Shown here piece by piece: positions 5,646-17,580 of a stretch of 35,270 nt of DNA. The stretch's first letter is position 1. Every line of letters starts with the position of its first letter. The stretch lies in assembly GCA_016234855.1 (NCBI GenBank), contig JACRNO010000025.1, positions 1 to 35,270 on the forward strand, in the 5' to 3' direction. The stretch comes from Deltaproteobacteria bacterium (GTDB taxonomy: Bacteria; Desulfobacterota; GWC2-55-46). The notes beneath the pieces were generated by a model. The model was not told where the DNA came from, searched no databases, and was given only the letters and a program-made list of their open reading frames with translations. Made by a program: the position numbers and the translations under genes.

Positions 5646-6953
5646 TTGGCGTCCCTCACCTCGACCATAGGAAAGATACCGGAGCTTAACCGTCGTATAA
5701 TCATTACGCTTATTGCCCTGGCCGTATTCAGGATAGGCGTATTCATACCCACCCCAGGCATAGACGCCGAGGCGCTCTCCGCGTTTTTCAAGGGGGCAAG
5801 CGGCACGCTTCTCGACTTCGCCACCATGTTTACCGGCGGAGCGCTTGAGAGGTTCTCCGTCTTCTCTCTCGGCATCATGCCGTATATCAGCGCGTCCATT
5901 ATCCTGCAGCTTCTTACCGCCGTTGTGCCGCACCTCGAAAAACTCTCCAAAGAAGGCGAGTCGGGCAGGCGCACGATAACCCAGTATACCCGCTACCTGA
6001 CGATAGCTTTAAGCATCGTTCAGGGCATGATGATAGCCGTGGGCCTTGAGTCGATGGCAGGGCCGGGCGGGGCGAATATCGTCATTCACCCCGGTTGGGG
6101 TTTCAGGCTCTTTACGGTCGTGACCCTTACCGCCGGCACAACCTTTCTCATGTGGCTCGGCGAGCAGATTACTGAAAGGGGCATCGGCAACGGGATTTCC
6201 CTCATCATCTTCGTCGGCATCATAGCGAGGATGCCCGCGGCGTTTACGCATACGATACAGCTTGTCAGGACGGGCGAGATGAGCTTTGTGGTCGTCTTGC
6301 TTATGATAATCATGATGGTGCTGGTCATCGGCTTCATCGTCTTTATGGAGATGGCCCAGCGCAGGATTCCCATACAGTATCCAAAGCGCGTCGTGGGCCG
6401 TAAGGTGCTCGGCGGCGGCACACAGCACCTGCCGTTGAAGCTCAACAGCGCGGGCGTCATACCGCCCATCTTCGCCTCGTCGATAATAGTCTTTCCGGCT
6501 ACGATTGCGAACTTTATCAAGATACCGGTCATGCAGACCATCTCCGCCAGCCTTAACCCGGGCGGGGTGCTGTATAACGTGCTTTATATCGCATTGATAA
6601 TATTCTTCACCTTCTTCTATACGGCAGTCCAGTTCAACCCGAAGGAAGTGGCGGAGAACCTGAAGAAGTACGGCGGCTTTGTACCGGGCATCCGTCCCGG
6701 CGCGCATACCGCCGATTATATAGACATGGTGCTGACAAGGATAACGCTCTGGGGAGCGCTCTATCTGGCCCTTGTCTGCGTGCTGCCATCGGTGCTCGTG
6801 GCCGAGTTCAACGCCCCGTTTTACTTCGGCGGCACCGCGCTCCTCATCGTGGTCGGCGTAGCCATGGACACCGCGCAGCAGATAGAGTCTCACATGCTCG
6901 CGCGCAGTTACGACGGTCTGCTTAAAAAGGGCAAGGTGCGCGGCAGGAGCTGA
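5646..6953 (+). CDS. secY: Preprotein translocase subunit SecY
   Basis: 435 aa polytopic protein with SecY signatures; TTG start directly after rplO. Confidence 0.97.
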   Translation: MASLTSTIGKIPELNRRIIITLIALAVFRIGVFIPTPGIDAEALSAFFKGASGTLLDFATMFTGGALERFSVFSLGIMPYISASIILQLLTAVVPHLEKLSKEGESGRRTITQYTRYLTIALSIVQGMMIAVGLESMAGPGGANIVIHPGWGFRLFTVVTLTAGTTFLMWLGEQITERGIGNGISLIIFVGIIARMPAAFTHTIQLVRTGEMSFVVVLLMIIMMVLVIGFIVFMEMAQRRIPIQYPKRVVGRKVLGGGTQHLPLKLNSAGVIPPIFASSIIVFPATIANFIKIPVMQTISASLNPGGVLYNVLYIALIIFFTFFYTAVQFNPKEVAENLKKYGGFVPGIRPGAHTADYIDMVLTRITLWGALYLALVCVLPSVLVAEFNAPFYFGGTALLIVVGVAMDTAQQIESHMLARSYDGLLKKGKVRGRS

Positions 6954-7014
6954 TAGAGGTCCACGCGCGTCAGACGCGGTCTTTCGGGTTTTATATGCTG
7001 CCCGCCTTAATCGC

Positions 7015-7046
7015 GGCCGCACCCGCGCGGGAGCGTGGATTGAGAC
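7015..7046 (+). repeat. Solitary CRISPR-repeat-like sequence (type I-C-like) upstream of adk
   Basis: GGCCGCACCCGCGCGGGAGCGTGGATTGAGAC: imperfect hairpin plus GTGGATTGA(A/G)AC 3' end characteristic of I-C repeats; 19-nt contiguous identity with 9777-9808; ends 16 nt before the adk ATG. Confidence 0.55.
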
Positions 7047-7062
7047 ATTATCGACGAGGTTT

Positions 7063-7722
7063 ATGAATATCATTCTTCTCGGCCCCCCCGGGGCCGGTAA
7101 AGGGACCCAAGGCAAGCTTATTGCCCAGCAATATTCCATACCGCAGATTTCAACGGGCGATATCCTGCGCGCAAACGTCAAGAACAAGACCGCGCTCGGG
7201 CTCAAGGCCAGGGAGTTCATGGACAAAGGCGTGCTCGTGACCGACGATATAGTCGTAGGCATGGTCGAAGACCGCATAGCTATGAAGGATTGTCAGGCCG
7301 GTTTCATACTCGACGGTTTTCCGAGGAATATCAATCAGGCCGGTGTGCTCGGCAGGATGCTCGAAGGCGCGGGAAAGAAGGTCGACTACGTCATCGGCAT
7401 AGAGGTGGACAAGAAGGCCCTTGTCAAGCGTCTTTCCGGCAGGCGCGTATGCAGGAAGTGCGGCGAGAGCTACCATATAGTCTTCAGCCAGCCGCTCAAC
7501 CAGGGCATCTGCGACAAATGCGGCGGCGAGCTGTACCAGAGGGAAGACGACTTGGAAGAGACCATTGCGGCGCGCCTGGACGTCTATGAGCAGGAGACGC
7601 TGCCGCTCGTGGCATATTACACAGAGCGCGGATTGTATCGCGCCATCAACGGCGCTGGGGCGGTAGACATGATAACCGGCGCAATCGTGGAAGCCATTGA
7701 GAAGGGAAAACATAATACTTAA
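7063..7722 (+). CDS. adk: Adenylate kinase, zinc-binding LID type
   Basis: MNIILLGPPGAGKGTQ P-loop; CRKCGESYH...CDKCGGELYQR zinc LID. Confidence 0.98.
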   Translation: MNIILLGPPGAGKGTQGKLIAQQYSIPQISTGDILRANVKNKTALGLKAREFMDKGVLVTDDIVVGMVEDRIAMKDCQAGFILDGFPRNINQAGVLGRMLEGAGKKVDYVIGIEVDKKALVKRLSGRRVCRKCGESYHIVFSQPLNQGICDKCGGELYQREDDLEETIAARLDVYEQETLPLVAYYTERGLYRAINGAGAVDMITGAIVEAIEKGKHNT

Positions 7723-8288
7723 GACTCCTGAGGAGATAGGTATTATGCGGCGCAGCGGCGGCATAGTCGCTTCCGTGTTACAGTCGCTTCGTGAGACGGT
7801 CAGACCCGGGATAACCACGCTCGAACTTGAGCGGTGCGCCGAGGCCGAGATTAAAAGACGCAAGGCCGTTCCGGCGTTCAAAGGGTATAAGGGCTACCCG
7901 TTCTGTCTGTGCACCTCCGTAAAGGAGCAGGTCGTTCACGGCATGCCGTCAAAGAGGGTCTTGAACGACGGCGATATCGTAAGCATTGACGTAGGGGTGC
8001 TATACGACGGTTTCTTCGGGGATGCCGCCATAACCGTGCCCGTAGGCTCCGTTAAAGATGAGGCCGCCGCCTCAGGTGCCTAACTTCGGTCCGCCCGGCG
8101 TAGGTGAGAAACTAAAGCCCGGGATGGTTCTGGCCATCGAGCCTATGATAAACGCTGGCGGCTATAAGGTAAAAGTCCTTGGCGACGGTTGGACGGCGGT
8201 TACGGAGGACGGCGCTCTTTCGGCCCATTTCGAGCACACCGTGGCCGTTACAAAGGAAGGCCCGTTGGTGTTGACGCGGCTGAGCTGA
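7697..8288 (+). pseudogene. map: Type I methionine aminopeptidase, internally deleted and frameshifted
   Basis: N-part 7697-8083 (LKTPEEIGIMRRSGGIVA...[28 protein letters not shown]) and C-part 8058-8288 ([29 protein letters not shown]...FEHTVAVT) in different frames; the roughly 60-70 residues normally between them, including GHGIG, are missing. Confidence 0.85.
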
Positions 8289-8424
8289 ACGCCCGCAGGC
8301 GCTCATGGCGCTCGGACGGATGCTTGCGCCGATTCTGTTGTTTCAGCCGGTTCGTGACGCCGCCTTCCTATTTTTAGTTTTTTTCATATTTTTGTCTTTT
8401 TCGCGTGTAGGGGCTTGACAAGTA

Positions 8425-8433
8425 TGTTATAAT
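8425..8433 (+). promoter_or_regulatory. Candidate extended -10 promoter (TGtTATAAT) upstream of infA
   Basis: TGTTATAAT in an AT-rich stretch between map and infA. Confidence 0.4.
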
Positions 8434-8587
8434 ACACAATTCGACGGCATGGAGAGACTCCTGTCTCGATATTCCTATAGGCAAGGCTTTGTGACCGGGC
8501 CTGCATCCGGTAATGGCTGGCGGTCTGACAAGCGGAAACATCCGTATAATGTATCAACAAACGCAATAGACAAGGCTAAACGCGGAT

Positions 8588-8806
8588 ATGGTCAAAGAGG
8601 AATCCATACAGGTGGAAGGCACGGTGGTGGAGACGCTGCCCAATGCCATGTTTCGCGTAGAGCTTGAAAATAAGCATGTAGTGCTTGCCCATGTATCAGG
8701 CAAGATGAGGATGCACTTTATAAAGATACTCCCGGGTGATAAGGTTACCATAGAACTTTCACCTTATGACCTGACAAGGGGCCGGATAACCTACAGGTCG
8801 AAGTAG
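8588..8806 (+). CDS. infA: Translation initiation factor IF-1
   Basis: 72 aa, [68 protein letters not shown]. Confidence 0.98.
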
Positions 8807-8970
8807 CGCGCAATCCGTCCGTGCATATTGCAGGGCGCTTGTTATTCGGTTATTGCAGGCGGCAGCGTTATGTAAGATGTATGTGGCGCGAGACAGCCTT
8901 AAATAGTTTGACCGACGCTATGTTGTAAAGCGCGCCGGGGCGTATAGTAAAATTTGGAGACGAGGATACG

Positions 8971-9084
8971 ATGAAGGTAAGAAGCTCGGTAAAAAAGATA
9001 TGTGTAAAGTGCAAGATAATCAAGCGTAACGGGGTTGTGCGCGTAGTGTGCGCAAATCCGAAGCATAAGCAGAGACAGGGCTAA
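8971..9084 (+). CDS. rpmJ: 50S ribosomal protein L36 (not in supplied ORF track)
   Basis: [37 protein letters not shown], 37 aa. Confidence 0.97.
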
Positions 9085-9165
9085 GACGTCTGTGAGGCCG
9101 GTTGAGCCGGTCTCGGGACGCACGTGACCCGGAAACCATCGTAAGCTCATCAAAGGAGGGGCAAG

Positions 9166-9540
9166 TTGGCCAGAATTGCCGGTGTAGACCTCAATAAAAA
9201 CAAGCGTATCAGCGTGGCGCTTACCAAGATATACGGTCTTGGCGACGCCTCTGTCGCAAGCATCCTCGCGAAGGCCGAAGTTGACCCGGCCACCAGGACG
9301 CAGGACCTTACCGAGGCGCAGGTTGGCGCCATAAGGAAGGTCATCGACACCACGTACAAGGTCGAAGGCGACCTGCGTAAGGAAGTCTCCATGCACGTCA
9401 AGATGCTCGTTGACATGGGTTGCTACAGGGGGATACGCCACAGGAAGAACCTTCCGGTCCGCGGCCAGCGCACGCATACAAACGCGCGCACGCGCAAGGG
9501 GCCGAGAAAGGGCGTCGTATCCATAAGAAAGACCGAGTAG
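9166..9540 (+). CDS. rpsM: 30S ribosomal protein S13
   Basis: [23 protein letters not shown]...[21 protein letters not shown] start. Confidence 0.97.
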
Positions 9541-9776
9541 TCAGGGCCGGGTGGGCATGGCGGCGGGTTAGTTCTCGCGCCGTAACGGTCTGCATAGCAA
9601 GGCATCTTTTTAATGCGCGGCCTGTAAGGGACGCATGACTGATTCAGACGGCATGACGGGCGCCGGACTTGTTAATCGCATTGCGGTTCTGGTCTGACTC
9701 GTTGAGGGTTTATATAGGGCTGCTTGATGAAGAACGGACTCCGGCTTTAAGCGTGACAGCCGTAGGCAGGAATAAC

Positions 9777-9808
9777 GCCGCTCCCCGCGCGGGAGCGTGG
9801 ATAGAAAC
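9777..9808 (+). repeat. Solitary CRISPR-repeat-like sequence (type I-C-like) upstream of rpsK
   Basis: GCCGCTCCCCGCGCGGGAGCGTGGATAGAAAC: 32 nt, 7-bp stem CGCTCCC/GGGAGCG, GTGGATAGAAAC tail; ends 15 nt before the rpsK ATG. Confidence 0.6.
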
Positions 9809-9823
9809 TAAAAAAAGAGGCGA

Positions 9824-10201
9824 ATGATGGCGAAGCAGAAGAAGGATAAAAGGTCGGTATCGAAGGCTATTGCCCATATAAAATCCACCTTCAACAACAC
9901 CATGATAACCATAGCGGACCCGGCCGGGAACGTAATCTCGTGGGCGAGCTCCGGCGGACAGGGGTTCAGGGGGTCGAGGAAGGGCACGCCGTTCGCCGCG
10001 CAGGTGGCGGCTGAGAAGGCCGCAAAGAGCGCGATGGACAGCGGCGTAAAGAGCGTTGACGTGTATATCAACGGCCCCGGCTCAGGCAGGGAAGCGGCGC
10101 TCAGGGCGCTTCAGACCGCCGGTTTCGGCATAAGCCTTATCAGAGACGTAACGCCGCTTCCGCACAACGGTTGCAGGCCGCCCAAGAGGCGCAGGGTTTA
10201 A
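9824..10201 (+). CDS. rpsK: 30S ribosomal protein S11
   Basis: S11 sequence ending [18 protein letters not shown]. Confidence 0.98.
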
Positions 10202-10267: not shown

Positions 10268-10300
10268 AAGGCGCCAAAGACACAACGTTAGCGCACAAGG
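10268..10300 (+). repeat. 33-bp direct repeat, copy 1
   Basis: AAGGCGCCAAAGACACAACGTTAGCGCACAAGG, identical to 10408-10440. Confidence 0.95.
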
Positions 10301-10407: not shown

Positions 10408-10440
10408 AAGGCGCCAAAGACACAACGTTAGCGCACAAGG
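10408..10440 (+). repeat. 33-bp direct repeat, copy 2 (just upstream of rpsD RBS)
   Basis: AAGGCGCCAAAGACACAACGTTAGCGCACAAGG, identical to 10268-10300. Confidence 0.95.
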
Positions 10441-15883: not shown

Positions 15884-15967
15884 AACCGCCCAGCACCACT
15901 TTCCGTTTCCATGCTTCGTTTTTGCGCGGGCTTTCGCGCCGGAAAGTGGTGCTGGGCGGTTTTTTAT
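15884..15967 (+). terminator. Long-stem rho-independent terminator
   Basis: Perfect 22-bp arms AACCGCCCAGCACCACTTTCCG (15884-15905) / CGGAAAGTGGTGCTGGGCGGTT (15940-15961) followed by T tract. Confidence 0.85.
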
Positions 15968-17369: not shown

Positions 17370-17580
17370 CAGGCTGTTCAAAAAGCTCCCGACCCATCCT
17401 TCGGATGGGTGCCCCGAAGGCATCGAGGAGCGAGGAATGAGGCTGGGCTCCCGTTGCCGCCAGCCAAAGGCTGGCATTGCAACGGGAAGATTGTCCATAC
17501 GCCGCAATGACGAGCCGGGGCACCCACGCCAAGCGGCGTGGGTCGGATAACGCAGTAGATGGAGCTTTTTCAACAGCCTG
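17370..17580. mobile_element. MITE-like palindromic repeat element (copy 2) between tatA and the tonB-like gene
   Basis: CAGGCTGTTCAAAAAGCTCC (17370-17389) / GGAGCTTTTTCAACAGCCTG (17561-17580), one mismatch; interior GAGGAGCGAGGAATGAGGC and ...GACGARCCGGGGCACCC...GGCGTGGGTCGGATAACG shared with copy 1. Confidence 0.8.

Follow-up and report, generated by a model that had tools for sequence, protein, structure and literature searches.

A chromosomal family of solitary type I-C CRISPR repeats in sense orientation before start codons in a class of Desulfobacterota

Introduction

Phages and plasmids are known to carry solitary CRISPR repeats that serve as RNA decoys, and to our knowledge few non-defense uses of CRISPR parts have been described. 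Viral solitary repeat units are RNA anti-CRISPRs (Racr) that bind Cas proteins (PMC10651486), and the RNA anti-CRISPRs made from viral solitary repeats have been reviewed (PMC11656645). Cas5d, the enzyme that processes type I-C repeats, reads the hairpin together with the 3' single strand and cuts at the hairpin base, which yields an 11-nt tag (PMC3890593). Here, we analyze a 35,270-nt stretch of DNA (the window) from a Deltaproteobacteria bacterium, in which a repeat-like sequence of this type precedes adk, the gene for adenylate kinase.

Results

The element before adk

The sequence GGCCGCACCCGCGCGGGAGCGTGGATTGAGAC occupies positions 7015-7046 on the + strand, and its final base lies 16 nt upstream of the ATG of adk (7063..7722, +, identified by Pfam), exactly where the initial annotation had placed a repeat-like sequence. 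Comparison with the other copies described below showed that G7015 belongs to the flank and that the element proper is 31 nt long (7016..7046, +; defined by sequence, covariance model and fold prediction), so the 32 nt described initially exist as a sequence but exceed the unit by one base. The upstream ORF (5646..6953, +) has tblastn relatives along its whole length; we take it to be secY from its position in the ribosomal-protein operon region. The closest named SecY relatives share 60-68% identity and belong to mixed phyla. The part of the secY-adk spacer 5' of the element covers 6954..7015 (+, delimited by comparison with members of the bacterial family), and a GAGG Shine-Dalgarno-like motif is located between the element and the adk start codon.

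The adk copy differs from the other copies by one C missing from the C-run and by two substitutions: T-to-A, which breaks the stem, and A-to-G in the tail, which reads GTGGATTGAGAC and corresponds to a GTGGATTGAAAC-type tail with one change. In the fold prediction, an A.A mismatch disrupts the canonical 7-bp I-C stem and the lowest energy is reached by another stem, of 6 bp (z -0.7, no better than shuffles). The covariance model gave this copy 40.9 bits, with E = 8e-9 in a search of this genome; this score and the pattern search below put the match far above chance.

Four dispersed copies in one genome

A whole-genome search with a 22-nt core pattern, GSGCGGGAGCGTGGATTGAAAC, gave four matches, whereas the reversed pattern, used as a control, gave none; the draft assembly searched measures 2.3 Mb and is 95% complete. 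Two of these four dispersed copies are inside the window (C24:7015-7046 before adk and C24:9777-9808 before rpsK, both sense, by pattern). The second one, GCCGCTCCCCGCGCGGGAGCGTGGATAGAAAC (9777..9808, +), was found by pattern, covariance model and fold prediction, is a better copy than the one before adk, and has an intact 7-bp stem followed by the tail GTGGATAGAAAC. It ends 15 nt upstream of rpsK (ribosomal protein S11; 9824..10201, +, by Pfam), whose orthologues start at the second ATG, 9827. The third copy (C8:25160-25191) points toward a following DUF374 acyltransferase-like gene and the fourth (C42:15678-15709) toward uppS, with both copies located by pattern and both genes assigned by Pfam. 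All four copies are thus in the sense orientation, 16 (adk), 15 (rpsK), 10 (DUF374 gene) and 5 nt (uppS) before the ATG, and the canonical 7-bp stem is predicted in all except the adk copy.

The statement that the window holds no second repeat was therefore mistaken, as the better copy precedes rpsK. The adk element is solitary in that it is a single repeat with no spacers, but it is not unique, being one of four copies in the genome and one of two in the window. The two window copies are 2.7 kb apart with no neighboring repeat, which does not make an array, and each is a single intergenic repeat with no partial repeat nearby, as expected of a solitary unit. Both sit in the conserved ribosomal-protein operon region and not on a virus, prophage or plasmid.

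Repeats of other kinds are also present. Two MITE-like elements, at 1876-2044 (~170 nt) and 17370-17580 (~210 nt), with another at C13 of this genome (L004), have the terminal inverted repeats CAGGCTG(C/T)TCAAAAAGCTCC and the internal palindrome ACCC(A/G)CGCCAAG(T/C)GGCGTGGGT. The rpsK-rpsD spacer contains a perfect 33-nt direct repeat, AAGGCGCCAAAGACACAACGTTAGCGCACAAGG, at 10268-10300 and 10408-10440, the second copy of which directly precedes the rpsD Shine-Dalgarno region. A perfect 22-nt inverted repeat spans 15884-15905 and 15940-15961, with 34 nt between its arms.

Descent from type I-C repeats

True I-C arrays exist in the same bacterial family. One genome (G021) carries an array of 15 repeats, GTCGCTCCCCGCGCGGGAGCGTGGATTGAAAC, spaced ~66 nt apart and close to Cas5d and Cas7; a second (G005) has the identical repeat in an array at a contig end, and a third (G008) has a close variant, one base different in the core, also at a contig end. 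The best copy in the present genome is identical to the 32-nt G021 repeat at 31 of 32 positions, identities between solitary copies and same-family array repeats are 31 or 32 of 32 nt, and genome-wide covariance-model E values reach down to 5e-13. The dispersed family shows the features of an I-C repeat (~32 nt, a 7-bp hairpin and a GTGGATTGAAAC-type 3' tail), as do three of the four copies here, the adk copy having the altered tail and broken stem. Rfam gave no curated-model match in the window at gathering score, nothing at E up to 1 for 6900-9900, and no match besides one tRNA on ten related loci. The element is almost certainly a type I-C CRISPR repeat by descent, and the suggestion that it is CRISPR-derived gains a concrete source in the same-family GTCGCTCCCCGCGCGGGAGCGTGGATTGAAAC arrays, with which the dispersed copies share stem, length and tail type. 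The initial annotation would have taken the lack of an I-C array in the genome or close relatives, together with many unrelated hairpins, as a sign of an unrelated palindrome; instead, same-family arrays were found.

Placement before genes across the class

We built a covariance model from 18 copies, searched 65 genomes of the class, and found solitary copies, apart from arrays, in 17 of them. Twenty-nine independent copies were left once we had excluded members of arrays, matches that were weak or coding, and one duplicate at an orthologous locus. A sense start codon lies 0-45 nt downstream in 19 of these and an antisense start in one, with ~12% expected from random non-ORF sites in the same loci (binomial p ~2e-11; sign test 4e-5); the counts are approximate because the start rule, although fixed, is an ORF heuristic and not a gene caller. 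The downstream genes comprise adk, rpsK, uppS, rpoZ, rpmC, rpmG, gapA, gcvT, secD, murI, cbiD, a 2-oxoacid oxidoreductase subunit and others (rpoZ, rpmC, rpmG, gapA, murI and the oxidoreductase subunit were named by reading translations). Two other copies sit 5-7 nt past the stop codon of rplA or lpxC. A phylum-wide pattern scan returned mostly true arrays and few solitary copies outside the class, a plasmid search returned Nitratidesulfovibrio records only, and a search of phage records returned no match. We are confident that these copies form a chromosomal family of solitary repeats, in sense orientation, before start codons.

In a test of promoter position, sigma-70-like sites were not enriched at a constant spacing upstream of the elements. 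The murI copy of G019 fits the idea that the element begins at the transcription start, but the test does not support this idea as a rule. Separately, at one locus (L104, G009:C232), AATTTTAAGGATTGAAAC lies ~45 nt upstream of the solitary repeat and looks like the 3' terminus of a different kind of CRISPR repeat.

Constraint on stem and tail

In an alignment of 30 copies fitted to the structure, 90% of the stem cells pair and 19 cells carry two-sided changes, and the covariation score of the stem was reached by none of 500 shuffles; an earlier free alignment of 18 copies agrees. This covariation could instead be a legacy of the variety that already exists among I-C repeats. The least variable positions are the lower stem and the tail, of which the 12-nt GTGGATTGAAAC tail is nearly invariant, with the caveat that the search itself favors intact tails. 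The conserved lower stem and tail match the parts read by Cas5d, but their conservation could have the same inherited source.

Cas genes

Searches for Cas1, Cas5d and Cas7 detected none in this genome, and with a draft 95% complete their absence is likely, not proven. Most genomes bearing solitary copies, this one included, have no detectable I-C Cas7 or Cas5d. Among 61 genomes tested, I-C Cas7 was found in 2 of 16 with solitary copies and 5 of 45 without (p = 1), so no current Cas dependence is seen and a Cas5d-dependent role in this genome most likely belongs to the past. With none of the three Cas proteins found, the Cas5d-cleavable leader suggested in the initial annotation is not supported for this genome today, although such a leader may have existed in an ancestor and may exist in relatives with I-C. 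Solitary copies co-occur weakly with arrays (4 of 6 array genomes, p = 0.04).

Gain and turnover

In most members of the family, secY and adk are separated by just a few bases and the element is missing; it was also absent from all examined adk and rpsK leaders of other family members, including other species of the same genus. The conservation of the secY-adk spacer in relatives, which the initial annotation had proposed to check, was accordingly not seen, and the family's orthologous leaders without the element indicate that the copies here are lineage-specific gains. The sole shared locus is in two genomes of one genus (G010 and G017), which carry a copy at the same place. Taken together, the copies appear to have been gained recently and often.

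Since a 32-nt sequence is unlikely to arise anew, copying must occur, and we know of no mechanism by which one CRISPR repeat is copied to a new site. Of the four copies here, three begin with GCCGC, in contrast to GTCGC in the family arrays, which hints at copying within the genome. The secY-adk and rpsM-rpsK spacers of other species do not align with those of this genome, so no target-site duplication could be demonstrated by comparison with empty sites.

Solitary I-C repeats on viral contigs

Viral contigs scanned for I-C repeat cores yielded 63 usable solitary copies. A start codon within 45 nt was found in sense for 19 of the 63 and in antisense for 8 (null 12%), so the viral copies partly share the leader position, while the orientation bias on its own is marginal (19 versus 8, p = 0.05). 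At the viral loci L345, L357, L368 and L373, a single contig holds two separate solitary I-C repeats with hundreds to thousands of bases between them. A number of viral copies, as well as chromosomal copies in G008, run on as GAAACAAAC(AAAC) before the start codon. At a further viral repeat (L297), a GC-rich hairpin (CCCCCGC...GCGGGGG) within ~50 nt downstream is perhaps a terminator, which suggests a free small RNA and not an mRNA leader.

Discussion

Our leading reading, which we hold tentatively, is that, in ancestors and relatives with I-C, the element is a decoy or a leader that Cas5d can cleave, and that it has been orphaned in this genome. Single I-C-derived repeat units would have been gained repeatedly in the mRNA leaders of genes in this class, many of which are housekeeping genes. 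The element would be transcribed within the mRNA and would form the pre-crRNA hairpin with a single-stranded GUGGAUUGAAAC tail, the two features recognized by Cas5d. Where I-C proteins are present, Cas5d would cut at the hairpin base, dividing the element into 21 nt and 11 nt; the released repeat fragment may then occupy Cas5d or Cascade as a decoy, like the phage RNA anti-CRISPRs, and the mRNA left behind would begin with the 11-nt tag, separated from the start codon by a few bases. In this genome, loss of the I-C system would have come after the gain. Because no Cas protein was found here, we regard the adk copy as most likely orphaned, with a hairpin that is already decaying. Against the decoy part stands the lack of an obvious advantage to the host chromosome, and against the cleavable leader the predicted failure of the adk copy to fold canonically.

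The serious rivals to a cleavable leader are a Cas-independent leader element and strand-biased insertion. The first, which is possible but in our view unlikely, holds that the repeat was captured as a ready 5' hairpin with an A-rich tail, a candidate for tuning mRNA stability or translation start that is kept without Cas. Such a use would account for the strong leader bias, the many highly expressed genes and the genomes without detectable I-C Cas, and it agrees with the compensatory changes in the stem and with copies that lie 0-10 nt from the ATG, leaving no space for a separate Shine-Dalgarno site. A plain hairpin, however, does not need the nearly invariant 12-nt tail, the copies before orthologous adk and rpsK are not conserved even within a genus, the covariation is perhaps a legacy of repeat diversity, and the adk stem is broken.

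The second rival, to which we give rather little weight, is that the copies are selectively neutral marks of a copy-and-paste process that prefers transcribed leaders and is followed by decay. High turnover is expected from such a process, and the loci indeed vary from genus to genus and among the species of a single genus; the scattered substitutions and indels in the copies and the shared GCCGC start, as if three copies here had been copied from each other, also fit. Nevertheless, the sense-only placement would require strand-biased insertion, and the tail and lower stem are more conserved than the loop, even if the search favors intact tails. Moreover, no process for copying a single repeat is known to us, and target-site duplication was not shown because the leaders cannot be aligned between species.

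A broader extension of the cleavable-leader reading, which we consider improbable, is that captured I-C repeats constitute a chromosomal regulatory network that ties the processing and abundance of housekeeping mRNAs to the CRISPR machinery; its rapidly gained and lost members would be cleaved by Cas5d or, after Cas loss, by a stand-in RNase. It is very improbable that the copies are remnants of CRISPR arrays reduced to one repeat: recombination is expected to leave such remnants and the weak co-occurrence with arrays is in line with them, but the copies occupy several unlinked sites in conserved ribosomal and housekeeping operons, in sense and without cas genes. Finally, a REP-like convergent palindrome without CRISPR kinship, conceivable in a genome with GC-rich palindromes and MITE-like repeats and named in the initial annotation, is effectively excluded by the 31-32/32 identity to same-family array repeats, the E values and the empty reversed-pattern control.

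Comparison with known systems

The closest described systems share different parts of this picture. First, the I-C array repeat, for example the 32-nt repeat of Bacillus halodurans (PMC3890593), has the same length, stem position and GTGGATTGAAA(C/T) tail; the site here differs in having no second repeat, spacer or cas genes. Second, REP and MITE palindromes are likewise short, dispersed and palindromic with high turnover, but lack the CRISPR-repeat identity, the 31-32 nt unit and the sense placement before start codons. Third, the exapted repeats of creA and scaRNA (PMC8730458) are also host-encoded single repeat-like units, theirs with a non-immune role; they are guides that work with Cas proteins, whereas here the repeat lies in cis before genes, a guide is not evident and cas genes were not found. 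The literature that we covered, which was partial and so cannot prove absence, contained no description of solitary repeats in the gene leaders of a chromosome. At last, the Racr and other viral solitary units are, like the copies here, single and intergenic, with a hairpin and a 3' tail and without cas genes or spacers, and some viral I-C units stand directly before a start codon. In contrast to Racr, the present copies are chromosomal, occur several per genome in the leaders of essential and other housekeeping genes, and are carried by genomes mostly without detectable I-C Cas proteins. The repeats described here make up a dispersed chromosomal family in front of essential genes and others, in sense and a few bases from the start codon. 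They raise the questions of how a lone repeat reaches a new site by copying, whether cellular mRNAs are substrates of Cas5d, and whether leader elements have been recruited from CRISPR repeats.
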